Shown piece by piece: positions 30,843 through 54,049 of a stretch of 64,000 nt of DNA. Where the stretch lies: the NCBI GenBank assembly GCA_040752355.1, contig JBFMHE010000008.1, positions 62,001-126,000 of the forward strand, read 5' to 3'. The translations under genes and the position numbers were made by a program. The notes beneath the pieces are model-generated. The model was not told the origin of the DNA, searched no databases, and was given only the letters and a program-made list of their open reading frames with translations. Every line of letters begins with the position of its first letter. Position 1 is the stretch's first letter. Source of the stretch: Nitrospirota bacterium (GTDB lineage Bacteria > Nitrospirota > Thermodesulfovibrionia > Thermodesulfovibrionales > Dissulfurispiraceae).

Positions 30843-31241
30843 ATGAAGGTTGCTTTCGCGACAACGGACGGTGTTACGGTTGATGAGCATTTCGGGCGGG
30901 CGGGCATGTTCGCCGTTTACGAGATGGATCTCCAGGGGTATCGCTTTCTCGAGATGCGGAAGTTCGCCGAGGGCAGGGATGCGGCGATAGAAGAGGCAAA
31001 GGGAATGGGCAGGCTGCACGACGACCGGGTGCAGGGCAAGGTCGACCGGCTTGCGGACTGCAGGATCATCTACCTGACCGAGATAGGCGGCCCCTCTGCA
31101 GCGCGCTTGGTGAAGAAGGGCGTTATGCCCGTAAAGGTGAAGGAAGCGGTCTCGATCGAGGAGTCGCTCCGGAAGCTGCTCCATACGGTGACGACCGCTC
31201 CGCCGCCGTGGTTGAAGAAAGCCATTACTCAACAACAATAG
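30843..31241 (+). CDS. nifX: NifX family FeMo-cofactor carrier
   Basis: 132 residues from ATG 30843, with AAGGAGGTGCG upstream. Opens KVAFATTDGVTVDEHFGRAG, the classical NifX/NafY dinitrogenase iron-molybdenum cofactor-binding fold, and continues with CRIIYLTEIGGPSAARLVKK and a conserved MPVKVKEAVSIEESL end. NifX binds cofactor precursors and moves them to or from NifEN, so placement next to nifEN fits. Separated from nifEN by a repeat-rich 170-bp gap. Confidence 0.93.
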   Translation: MKVAFATTDGVTVDEHFGRAGMFAVYEMDLQGYRFLEMRKFAEGRDAAIEEAKGMGRLHDDRVQGKVDRLADCRIIYLTEIGGPSAARLVKKGVMPVKVKEAVSIEESLRKLLHTVTTAPPPWLKKAITQQQ

Positions 31242-31330
31242 TCGTGAGCCAGCGGGAAGCGGACGTCGGGGAGTGGCGGTTCCACTCATGATCGATGCCC
31301 CCTGGCATTACACCAAAAGGAGGAAGGACC

Positions 31331-31648
31331 ATGAAGATGATCAGGGCGTTCATACGGCCGGAAAAGGAACAGGAAGTGGTGCTGGCGCTCGAGGGCGCGG
31401 GATTCCCCTCGCTGACGAAGATGCCTGTCTTCGGGCGCGGCAAACAGAAGGGATTGCAGGTAGGACCGGTGCATTACGACGAGCTCCCCAAGATGCTCAT
31501 CATGATGGTAGTTGACGATGACGACACGGACAAGGTGGTGAAGATGATCCAGGACAAGGCGAGGACCGGCTTCATCGGCGACGGCAAGATCTTCATCAGT
31601 CCCGTCGAATCGGCCTACACCGTCAGGACCGGGGAGGCGGGGCTATGA
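31331..31648 (+). CDS. nifI1: Nif-associated PII protein NifI1
   Basis: 105 residues from ATG 31331 with AAAAGGAGGAAGG upstream. PII fold: KMIRAFIRPEKEQEVVLALE, a T-loop starting FGRGKQKGL, and the C-terminal GDGKIFISPVESAYTVRTGE signature. NifI1 and NifI2 form a hetero-oligomer that switches nitrogenase off after ammonium by binding dinitrogenase under control of 2-oxoglutarate and ATP/ADP. The gene overlaps nifI2 by ATGA. In most bacteria and archaea the pair lies between nifH and nifD; here it follows nifX. Confidence 0.93.
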   Translation: MKMIRAFIRPEKEQEVVLALEGAGFPSLTKMPVFGRGKQKGLQVGPVHYDELPKMLIMMVVDDDDTDKVVKMIQDKARTGFIGDGKIFISPVESAYTVRTGEAGL

Positions 31649-32061
31649 AAGAGATTACCGCTATCATACGCAGGGATAAGCTCCCCGAGACAAAGCAGGC
31701 TCTCGATGAGCTCGGCTATCCCTCGCTCACGATCCAGAGCGTCGACGGGAGGGGAAAGCAGAAGGGCGCCCTGTGCGCCGAGATGGATTCGGAAATGCCC
31801 GACAGTTACTGCACAGGGGCAAAGCTGAAGCCGACGCCCTCGGCCTACGCCGTCGAACACACCCTGCCGAAGGTGGCGCTCTTCGTGCCGAAGCGGATGA
31901 TCACGCTCGTCGTCCCCGATGAGGTGGTCAGCAAAGTGGTGAAGGGGATCGTCGCGGTGAACCGGACCGGCAAGCACGGCGACGGCAAGATATTCGTCTC
32001 TCCGGTTGCGGGCGCTGTCAGGGTGAGGACCGGGGAGGCGGATGGCGAGGCGATCATCTGA
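31645..32061 (+). CDS. nifI2: Nif-associated PII protein NifI2
   Basis: 138 residues, longer in the T-loop than NifI1 as expected for NifI2 (GRGKQKGALCAEMDSEMPDS, then YCTGAKLKPTPSAYAVEHTL). The fold ends with GDGKIFVSPVAGAVRVRTGE. It partners NifI1 in post-translational control of nitrogenase activity. Start ATG overlaps the nifI1 stop by four bases, implying coupled synthesis in equal amounts. Confidence 0.92.
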   Translation: MKEITAIIRRDKLPETKQALDELGYPSLTIQSVDGRGKQKGALCAEMDSEMPDSYCTGAKLKPTPSAYAVEHTLPKVALFVPKRMITLVVPDEVVSKVVKGIVAVNRTGKHGDGKIFVSPVAGAVRVRTGEADGEAII

Positions 32062-32070
32062 GGTTATGAA

Positions 32071-32222
32071 AACAGCTCTCAGCCGTCAGCTTTCAGTCAT
32101 CAGCAATGGATTATTACCTGCCGGTTGTCAGCGCTCAAAGGGAGCCGTTCGTTACGCTTCCCTTCACTGTCCGTATACTGAGAGCTGATTGCTGAAAGCT
32201 GAGAGCTGATTGCTGATGGCTT
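32071..32222. repeat. Imperfect inverted repeat between nifI2 and fdxB
   Basis: Left arm (about 32071-32107: CAGCTCTCAGCCGTCAGC...) and right arm (about 32178-32222: AGAGCTGATTGCTGAAAGC...) are imperfect complements. The right arm is itself an internal duplication of an AGAGCTGATTGCTGA unit. A 70-bp interior contains a smaller hairpin (GGGAGC/GCTTCCC). Confidence 0.85.
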
Positions 32223-32241
32223 GTCCATGAAAGGAGATGCG

Positions 32242-32517
32242 ATGGCGGTCGTGGGATATACCAGAGGCGGCAGGGAGTGGATACCGAAATTCATCGAGTC
32301 GATCGATGCGGAGAAGTGTATCGGCTGCGGCAGGTGTTACAAGGTCTGCAGCAGGGAGGTGCTGGAGCTGATCGAGAAGCCCTTCGAGGGTGAGGACGAG
32401 TTCGGGGATGACATGGGCAATAAGGTGATGAGCGTCGCCAACGCCGGGAACTGCATCGGCTGCGAGGCCTGCTCCAGAGCCTGCACCAAAAGGTGCCACC
32501 TGCATATAACGCTTTAG
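32242..32517 (+). CDS. fdxB: Nif-specific ferredoxin III, 2[4Fe-4S]
   Basis: 91 residues from ATG 32242 with GAAAGGAGATGC upstream. The protein has the nif-specific FdxB layout: GYTRGGREWIPKFIESIDAE, then two cluster motifs CIGCGRCYKVC and CIGCEACSRAC. Spacing between the two (about 45 residues, with acidic EDEFGDDMGNK) is that of ferredoxin III, unlike clostridial ferredoxins. It is thought to supply electrons to nitrogenase or to cofactor assembly. Last gene of the nif cluster in this window. Confidence 0.93.
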   Translation: MAVVGYTRGGREWIPKFIESIDAEKCIGCGRCYKVCSREVLELIEKPFEGEDEFGDDMGNKVMSVANAGNCIGCEACSRACTKRCHLHITL

Positions 32518-32547: not shown

Positions 32548-32703
32548 GGGAGTGGGGAGGACAGAGTGCTTCCACTTCATTCTCGGTCGATACGACCTCC
32601 GAGGCTTGATCAGCTCGGAATCGAGTCGTACCGACCCGCTTCACCATCCCTGGTTTCGCTTGGGCTGATCAAGCCGTTCCAGCACTCTGTCCTCCCCACT
32701 CCC
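32548..32703. repeat. Structured dispersed element, copy 1
   Basis: Outer arms 32548-32570 and 32681-32703 (starting GGGAGTGGGGAGGACAGAG) are perfect 23-bp complements. Inside lie CTTCATTCTC (32575-32584), hairpin GGTCG-ATA-CGACC (32585-32597), TCCGAGGC, a 12-bp stem GGCTTGATCAGC/GCTGATCAAGCC (32603-32614 and 32664-32675), and a 42-nt core (32612-32653) identical to 53936-53977. Located between convergent fdxB and the leftward YHYH-like gene. Confidence 0.9.
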
Positions 32704-33408: not shown

Positions 33409-34242
33409 CTAGGGCGTACCGCCTTTCTTCCTGAAGCGTGCCGCTCCGGCAAGAGCGAGCAGCCCCGCGCCGAACAGGAGCAGGGTCGATGGCTCGGGTA
33501 CTACATAGGATTGTGACGCATCGACCTTGAGCATCGTGCCTCCGGCGGTCGGCGTGCCGTCCCACATGGCGCCGGGCGTAAAGAAGCTCGGCGCATTCAT
33601 TGTCCCCGTGGTCCGGAGCCCGACGATATCGCCGGTAGCGGTATCGATGAAGTTCGGGTTGGCGCTGTCCACCAGGAACAATATGTCAAAGGAGCCGGTG
33701 CCGGTTCCTGCGTTCTGCCCGGTGAGAATGGAATCGAAGCTCGCTTCGAGGTCCTGCAGATGCGCGGTGAGGATCGTCTGGCCGTCATTGTATCCGGAGA
33801 CGGTGTTCGGGTTCGCGTCGGGAGTCGGGTCGAAGAACATGGTCATGACGAGCGACTGGTTGGGCGCCCCTGCGAGGCTGGTCGTCTGGTGCGTTCTGCC
33901 GAGGCTGTCGACAAAAGACGACCGGGACGTGGAGAGGTCGTTGAGGCGTGTGGTGACGGTGATCTCGAAGTCGTCGTTCAGCGCGTCGGGGGCTACCGGA
34001 GCGCCGTTCCGCAGCATATCTCCTATGCGCGCCTGGTAGACGAAGTCCGTCTCTCCTGCCCCGCTGTCGCGCAGGAGAGCGGTGTCGGTGAGATGCGTCA
34101 TCAGGTCGGTGGATACCGAGAAATCGCCATTGCCGCCGGGCGAGAAGCGGAGCAGCGGTGCGGCGCCTGCGCCGGTTACGGTCGTCAGCGACAGAAGCCC
34201 GGCGAGGACCGCCGCACATGCCAGTATTCCTGCTTTCTTCAT
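33409..34242 (-). CDS. PEP-CTERM sorted surface protein (flocculation PepA-like)
   Basis: 277 residues from ATG 34242 behind an excellent GAAAGGAGGTGA ribosome site. Signal peptide: KKAGILACAAVLAGLLSLTT up to AGAAP. The mature part begins LLRFSPGGNGDFSVSTDLMT and is beta-rich, with GSFDILFLVDSANPNFIDTA and GLRTTGTMNAPSFFTPGAM, recalling flocculation-associated PEP-CTERM proteins. The C-terminus VPEPSTLLLFGAGLLALAGA plus RFRKKG is a standard exosortase signal. Sigma-54 promoter and operator boxes lie upstream. A terminator follows. Confidence 0.9.
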   Translation of the reverse strand: MKKAGILACAAVLAGLLSLTTVTGAGAAPLLRFSPGGNGDFSVSTDLMTHLTDTALLRDSGAGETDFVYQARIGDMLRNGAPVAPDALNDDFEITVTTRLNDLSTSRSSFVDSLGRTHQTTSLAGAPNQSLVMTMFFDPTPDANPNTVSGYNDGQTILTAHLQDLEASFDSILTGQNAGTGTGSFDILFLVDSANPNFIDTATGDIVGLRTTGTMNAPSFFTPGAMWDGTPTAGGTMLKVDASQSYVVPEPSTLLLFGAGLLALAGAARFRKKGGTP

Positions 34243-34385
34243 AGGCTTCACCTCCTTTCTTTGATGGAGTGGTACTTCCATGCCCTCTTCAGCCGATGAG
34301 AGGCGGACCGCAGGAGCAGGGCGTTGCAACGAGAGGGGGAGGGGCAAGGGCATGTAAGTACTTGGAATGTATATGCAAACAGGGT

Positions 34386-53845: not shown

Positions 53846-54049
53846 TCTAACAGAATGAGCACAGAGAGTCAGACAAGGCACAGTACATTCGTCTTCATTC
53901 TCCCAAGGCATCCACGCCTTGCTCCGAGGCGGGGCAGCTCGGAATCGAGTCGTACCGACCCGCTTCACCATCCCTGGATTACGCTCGGGCTGCCCATGCC
54001 GCTCATGTACTATGCCTTGTCTGACTCTAAGTTCTTTCATTTTGTTAGA
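53846..54049. repeat. Structured dispersed element, copy 2
   Basis: Outer paired arms TCTAACAGAATGA (53846-53858) with TCATTTTGTTAGA (54037-54049) and the 21-bp arm 53866-53886 with 54007-54027 (one mismatch). Inside: CTTCATTCTC (53893-53902), hairpin CAAGGC-ATCCAC-GCCTTG (53904-53921), CTCCGAGGC, a stem GGC-GGGGCAGC with GCTGCCC-ATGCC (53928-53938, 53989-54000) and the 42-nt core (53936-53977) identical to 32612-32653. Lies between Hsp20 and a small rightward gene. Confidence 0.9.

Follow-up and report, generated by a model that had tools for sequence, protein, structure and literature searches.

Introduction

Small dispersed repeats of bacteria, among them the MITEs and the Correia/NEMIS, RUP, ERIC, BOX and bcr1 repeats, have been reviewed previously (PMC2229807, PMC10969869). 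The elements that we investigated are similar to these repeats in that they are 100-200 bp long, contain no ORF, occur as many intergenic copies with inverted arms, yield stable transcript folds, and are present or absent between relatives; they are non-coding, dispersed, intergenic and mobile. However, the terminal repeat of MITEs is conserved, whereas the arms of the element vary freely in compensated pairs: they are complementary within a copy and only about 50% alike between copies, and thus do not form terminal inverted repeats common to the copies. No ends shared with an autonomous IS were found among the 180 left halves checked. In addition, and again unlike MITEs, the element is kept foldable on one strand alone and retains a phylum-wide scaffold with invariant loops; its empty sites show no clear target duplication.

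The GTAG-tagged REP/BIME repeats associated with RAYT (PMC3733652) are likewise palindromic, modular, intergenic and present in high copy number, but the element forms a larger three-way structure and does not flank any of the six Y1 genes of its genome. A further similarity concerns the RNA-binding regulator CsrA. In SELEX, CsrA yielded the consensus RUACARGGAUGU, whose GGA lies in a hairpin loop that usually has six bases and an AC/GU closing pair set, and the loops of CsrB contain CAGGA(U/A/C)G repeatedly (PMC7652899). Like CsrB, CsrC and RsmY/Z (PMC7652899), the elements present GGA in hairpin loops within CAGGAUG-like and ACARGGAUGU-like motifs, and loops with this context were found in all 15 of the CsrA-bearing genomes examined. 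Whereas a Csr/Rsm sRNA is one gene with about 20 sites, the element offers one or two loops per copy over 50-100 genomic copies, and its scaffold is also present without GGA in genomes that are free of CsrA. In dispersal the family is similar to MITEs, and in its loops to the Csr sRNAs; it lacks the shared terminal repeat of MITEs, and binding to CsrA, predicted for hosts that have it, would make it a Csr antagonist.

Results and Discussion

The two copies in the window

The window, that is, the whole stretch of 64,000 nucleotides that was analyzed (contig JBFMHE010000008.1 of the Nitrospirota assembly GCA_040752355.1), contains two copies of the element (Table 1). An earlier note on this DNA had placed both outside genes, and indeed neither overlaps a recognizable gene. 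The perfect 23-bp outer arm and the 12-bp inner stem that it described for the first copy were recovered, as were the hp1 hairpins, whose paired sides are GGTCG/CGACC in one of the copies but CAAGGC/GCCTTG in the second. The identical core it reported is real but measures 43 nt instead of 42 nt, and its choice of strand has to be reversed, since foldability is kept on the complementary strand.

Table 1. Features of the element copies, in window coordinates. Fold z-scores of the copies refer to dinucleotide shuffles.
Feature	Position	Strand	Evidence or remark
Copy 1 of the element	32548..32703	motif on +; putative foldable strand -	R1 covariance-model match 32552-32699, E 9e-22; fold z -11.0
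Copy 1, outer stem P1, left arm, 23 bp	32548..32570		perfect complement of 32681-32703
Copy 1, conserved TTCATTCTC, comprising the P2 start and the invariant strand of the internal loop (GAGAAU on -)	32576..32584		alignment columns 29-34 invariant in 63/63 copies
Copy 1, hairpin hp1, short form GGTCG-ATA-CGACC	32585..32597		covarying stem
Copy 1, TCC (GGA on -), nearly invariant, other strand of the internal loop	32598..32600		62-63/63 copies per column
Copy 1, 12-bp stem of hp2, left side	32603..32614		pairs with 32664-32675
Copy 1, 43-nt block	32611..32653		identical to 53935-53977
Copy 1, hp2 tip CCAGGGATGG, GGGA loop, CsrA-type CARGGAUG	32644..32653	-	sequence and pattern comparison; competing pairs form in the MFE fold of copy 1
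Copy 1, outer stem P1, right arm	32681..32703		pairs with 32548-32570
Copy 2 of the element, extended outer arms	53846..54049	-	R1 match 53869-54024, E 1.7e-15; fold z -8.8
Copy 2, hp1, long form; loop GUGGAU on - (CsrA-type)	53904..53921	-	sequence
Copy 2, 43-nt shared block	53935..53977		identical to 32611-32653
Copy 2, hp2 tip CCAGGGATGG, CsrA-type GGGA loop	53968..53977	-	loop sequence

A phylum-wide family of structured elements

The copies that blastn found in the window's genome are all variations on a single plan: outer arm, CGCTTCATTCTC, hp1, TCCGAGGC, hp2, CCGCTC, outer arm. The element comprises about 130 bases. Its outer stem (P1) measures about 20 bp and is almost unconstrained in sequence; the other parts are a tandem G.A motif and a junction with two hairpins (hp1 on P2; hp2). 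For alignment A1, 63 copies were aligned by sequence only; the structure was then written down and the pairs were counted. Paired cells amount to 91% in this alignment, compared to 68% after shuffling and 35-49% when the structure is slid. Two-sided changes occur in 27 of the 30 stem pairs and all stems covary, with a score of 0.58 (0.18 in shuffles; 0.09-0.14 slid), whereas the bases of the junction and the internal loop are nearly invariant. The pattern that the earlier note had seen in two copies, conserved unpaired parts between stems that change yet stay paired, thus extends through the alignment. At neither element of the window did Rfam 15 give a match, at gathering or permissive thresholds, and with the strand-specific tolerance of G.U described below, this fits the suggestion of a new family of structured RNA.

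Searching with blastn and copy 1 as query, we found about 36 further copies in the window's genome (3.57 Mb). The covariance model R1, built from the A1 alignment and structure, gave 52 hits there; a search of this kind had been proposed from the two window copies alone, and made from 63 copies it also found more members in relatives, with stems still paired. Given these numbers within one genome, the resemblance of the two window copies is not due to chance. Three congeners contain 95, 38 and 30 copies (the last in G022), and R1 matches occur in 86 of 396 Nitrospirota genomes and 57 of 170 genera. A DNA-pattern search of 84,980 species genomes returned at least 80 loci, and among the matches listed all are from Nitrospirota; the viral contigs searched contained no element. 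The elements form a previously unlisted, phylum-wide family of structured, dispersed elements under strand-specific structural selection, and they add to Rfam's inventory a class that it lacks.

Hairpin repeats of other kinds (ACAACCCCCTTAATCCCCC...GGGGGTTGT) often take the place of the hp2 tip, and the position of the swap is always roughly the same (L085, L093, L119, L056, L080). Minimal copies consist of the P1 stem of about 20 bp alone with the loop TCGCTC and are kept at an orthologous site (L220, G401:C10:2919-2964; L345, G292:C100).

The complementary strand is kept foldable

Mismatches in P1 are distributed very unevenly: on the strand described by the earlier note, A.C exceeds G.T by 315:53 in total, and in the six genome sets by 40:7, 83:11, 34:7, 43:2, 12:3 and 103:23. 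A.C mismatches on this strand are G.U pairs on its complement. For 203 of 214 copies the complement also has the lower RNA folding energy, and on it the TC/TC loop of P1 reads as tandem GA/GA. The mismatch bias, the better folding and the tandem G.A together identify the complementary strand as the one under selection.

Hairpin loops and CsrA

On the foldable strand of copies from the window's genome and its family, the hairpin loops read ACA-N-GGA-UGU, CC-AGGGAU-GG and GGC-NGGAU-GCC. The element loops match the CsrA SELEX consensus RUACARGGAUGU, with GGA in the context ACANGGAUGU and a loop of six bases closed by AC/GU. For copy 1 in the window, the GGA loop does not appear in the predicted MFE fold.

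The likeness was first spotted in family f1. We scored the presence of CsrA by PF02599 in 14 genomes first and then in 29 more, whose loops had mostly not yet been viewed. GGA was counted inside predicted hairpin loops; a looser GGA test was dropped because of false positives from GGTCGTTCCGACC, and the CsrA-bearing genome G031, represented by an element fragment alone, was left out of the loop counts. All 15 genomes with CsrA have GGA hairpin loops (35 of 37 copies) as opposed to 1 of the 26 genomes without it (5 of 50 copies), an association with p 2.5e-10 before correction for kinship. Since CsrA status and loop type are clumped on the tree, the data amount to about eight independent comparisons, not 41; at this level GGA loops are found in four of four families with CsrA (f1, f7, f12 and f15, the last from outside the window's order) and in none of four without it (f2, f11, f13, f19). 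For long hp1 hairpins alone, the numbers are 87/97 with CsrA and 3/15 without. Exceptions are G009 from family f1, which has GGA loops, and one of the three copies in G395, which has a GGA loop; in both genomes CsrA was not found. The loop type could also have been inherited together with csrA without any contact between the two.

We favor the explanation, with a probability of roughly 55%, that the elements are mobile, non-coding intergenic residents of Nitrospirota genomes whose complementary strand is transcribed into an RNA that would bind CsrA wherever CsrA exists. Judged by their loop sequences, the elements of CsrA-bearing hosts are probably CsrA-binding. There, both hairpin loops (ACANGGAUGU, GGCNGGAUGCC) would bind CsrA, whose dimer would be able to bridge them, and the copies would act as dispersed decoy sites, or else CsrA would protect the element RNA. 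In CsrA-free hosts the same scaffold without GGA loops may serve another partner, or merely its own spread. The more specific version, in which dozens of copies titrate CsrA or are protected by it, and GGA is gained and lost with the host's csrA while the scaffold otherwise stays constant, is tentative, and we put it slightly below even odds. We know of no CsrA antagonist RNA in Nitrospirota. If the link to CsrA is true, the repeats would form a diffuse sponge for a regulator that acts globally at the post-transcriptional level, and what looks like scattered "junk" may be its decoy.

Dispersal and turnover

Orthologous gaps are filled, empty, or hold a copy that differs in subtype or orientation, which reveals that the elements turn over. 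The copies spread through intergenic gaps and are gained and lost among related species, in agreement with the mobility that the earlier note had considered. Empty sites (85-93% flank identity) have extra flanking bases and no clear target duplication. In one genus, 6 of 20 orthologous pairs have opposite orientations. In-situ inversion as the general cause is rejected, as several pairs differ in subtype or position, and for these re-insertion fits better; L206 and L221, from relatives about 95% identical, look like a true local inversion in which the element was inverted in place together with some 25 nt of either flank. In one orthologous gap with 98-99% identical flanks the whole content is swapped: G401 (L196) has the element and G292 (L340, G292:C30:13700-14500) an unrelated TGTCATTCCC-type repeat. 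In the window's genome, L032, L033 and L035, at the ends of contigs C23, C20 and C13, share an identical interior of about 130 nt, of another subtype, with L036; identical interiors at contig breaks suggest recent amplification. The sequence TTCATAAA, considered as a common outer repeat of the elements, is rare and a separate repeat. A few copies (L118, L268, L068, L254) are enclosed by an outer inverted repeat (TTTAACCC..ATTATTCATAAA / TTTATGAATAAT..GGGTTAAA), which also looks like a separate repeat family.

An alternative explanation is that the elements are purely selfish, MITE- or REP-like DNA mobilized in trans, and that the loops have no role for the host. One strand would then fold as ssDNA during transposition and be recognized by its structure, as are attC sites or the ends of IS200/IS605. 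Dispersal, presence and absence, and an intergenic placement in which the shares of copies in tandem, convergent and divergent gaps equal those of all gaps would fit, as would strand-specific folding together with the link between orientation and GC skew (55:33) and the occurrence of Y1 transposases in 12 of 13 element-bearing genomes. However, none of the six Y1 genes in the window's genome is flanked by or near elements, G022 has its 30 copies without any Y1, and the 180 left halves include no autonomous, gene-carrying relative (170 have the right arm within 260 nt, and the other ten have no gene-carrying version). Selfish DNA also leaves the link to CsrA unexplained, and we consider this alternative unlikely. 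Mobilization by Y1/RAYT was rejected on the position of the Y1 genes in the window's genome, and derivation from a retroelement or group II intron because the RVT_1 reverse transcriptase is absent from the element-rich genomes G000 (the window's) and G012. No mobilizer emerged from these checks. Nothing that the earlier note had listed as counting against its reading came up.

Maintenance of the outer arms

In the genus studied, the pairing of P1 stops sharply at about 22 bp. Sequence is hardly constrained in its outer ten base pairs: where the interiors of two copies are 97-100% identical, their arms are about 50% alike, no more than in any pair of copies, and a subset of copies in the window's genome has long arms in common. 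The arms of orthologous copies in the same orientation are 75% alike on average and up to 100%. In about half of the orthologous copies the interior is nearer to a paralog from the same genome, though the arms are shared with the ortholog. Copying of the arms from the target was rejected, as no arm sequence could be seen in those empty sites that were inspected. Thirteen orthologous pairs show 9 two-sided Watson-Crick changes and 27 one-sided ones, when by our estimate about one double change is expected by chance. The structure is therefore upheld in resident copies and not at transposition alone, which makes the family a clear example of a mobile repeat whose resident copies are under strand-specific selection for structure.

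Template switching at palindromes, which copies one arm into the other, could create complementarity without selection for structure, and both the one-step transversion pairs between orthologous copies (GC to TA, GC to CG) and the combination of near-identical interiors with dissimilar arms are what it would produce. Strand-symmetric copying can neither yield the ratio of A.C to G.T mismatches nor confine the tandem G.A to one strand; this asymmetry largely refutes template switching, which we regard as very improbable.

Gene context

We found no promoter, and -10-like boxes are not in excess ahead of the foldable strand; for this reason we propose that the complementary strand would be transcribed mostly by read-through. 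Between tandem genes, antisense placement of the foldable strand outnumbers sense placement by 83 to 45, an excess that is odd for an RNA made by read-through and counts against it. The least probable of the explanations considered is a cis-acting mRNA element (a terminator, 3' end stabilizer or processing site, as for some REP or BOX repeats), which would fit the operon copies lying about 10 nt past stop codons and about 24 nt ahead of the next start but is contradicted by the antisense excess and the lack of a surplus between convergent genes. As for the window itself, about 30 nt separate copy 1 from an upstream cluster that resembles nitrogen-fixation genes (30843-32517; NifX-like protein, two PII-type regulators, ferredoxin), and a PEP-CTERM protein is encoded at 33409-34353.
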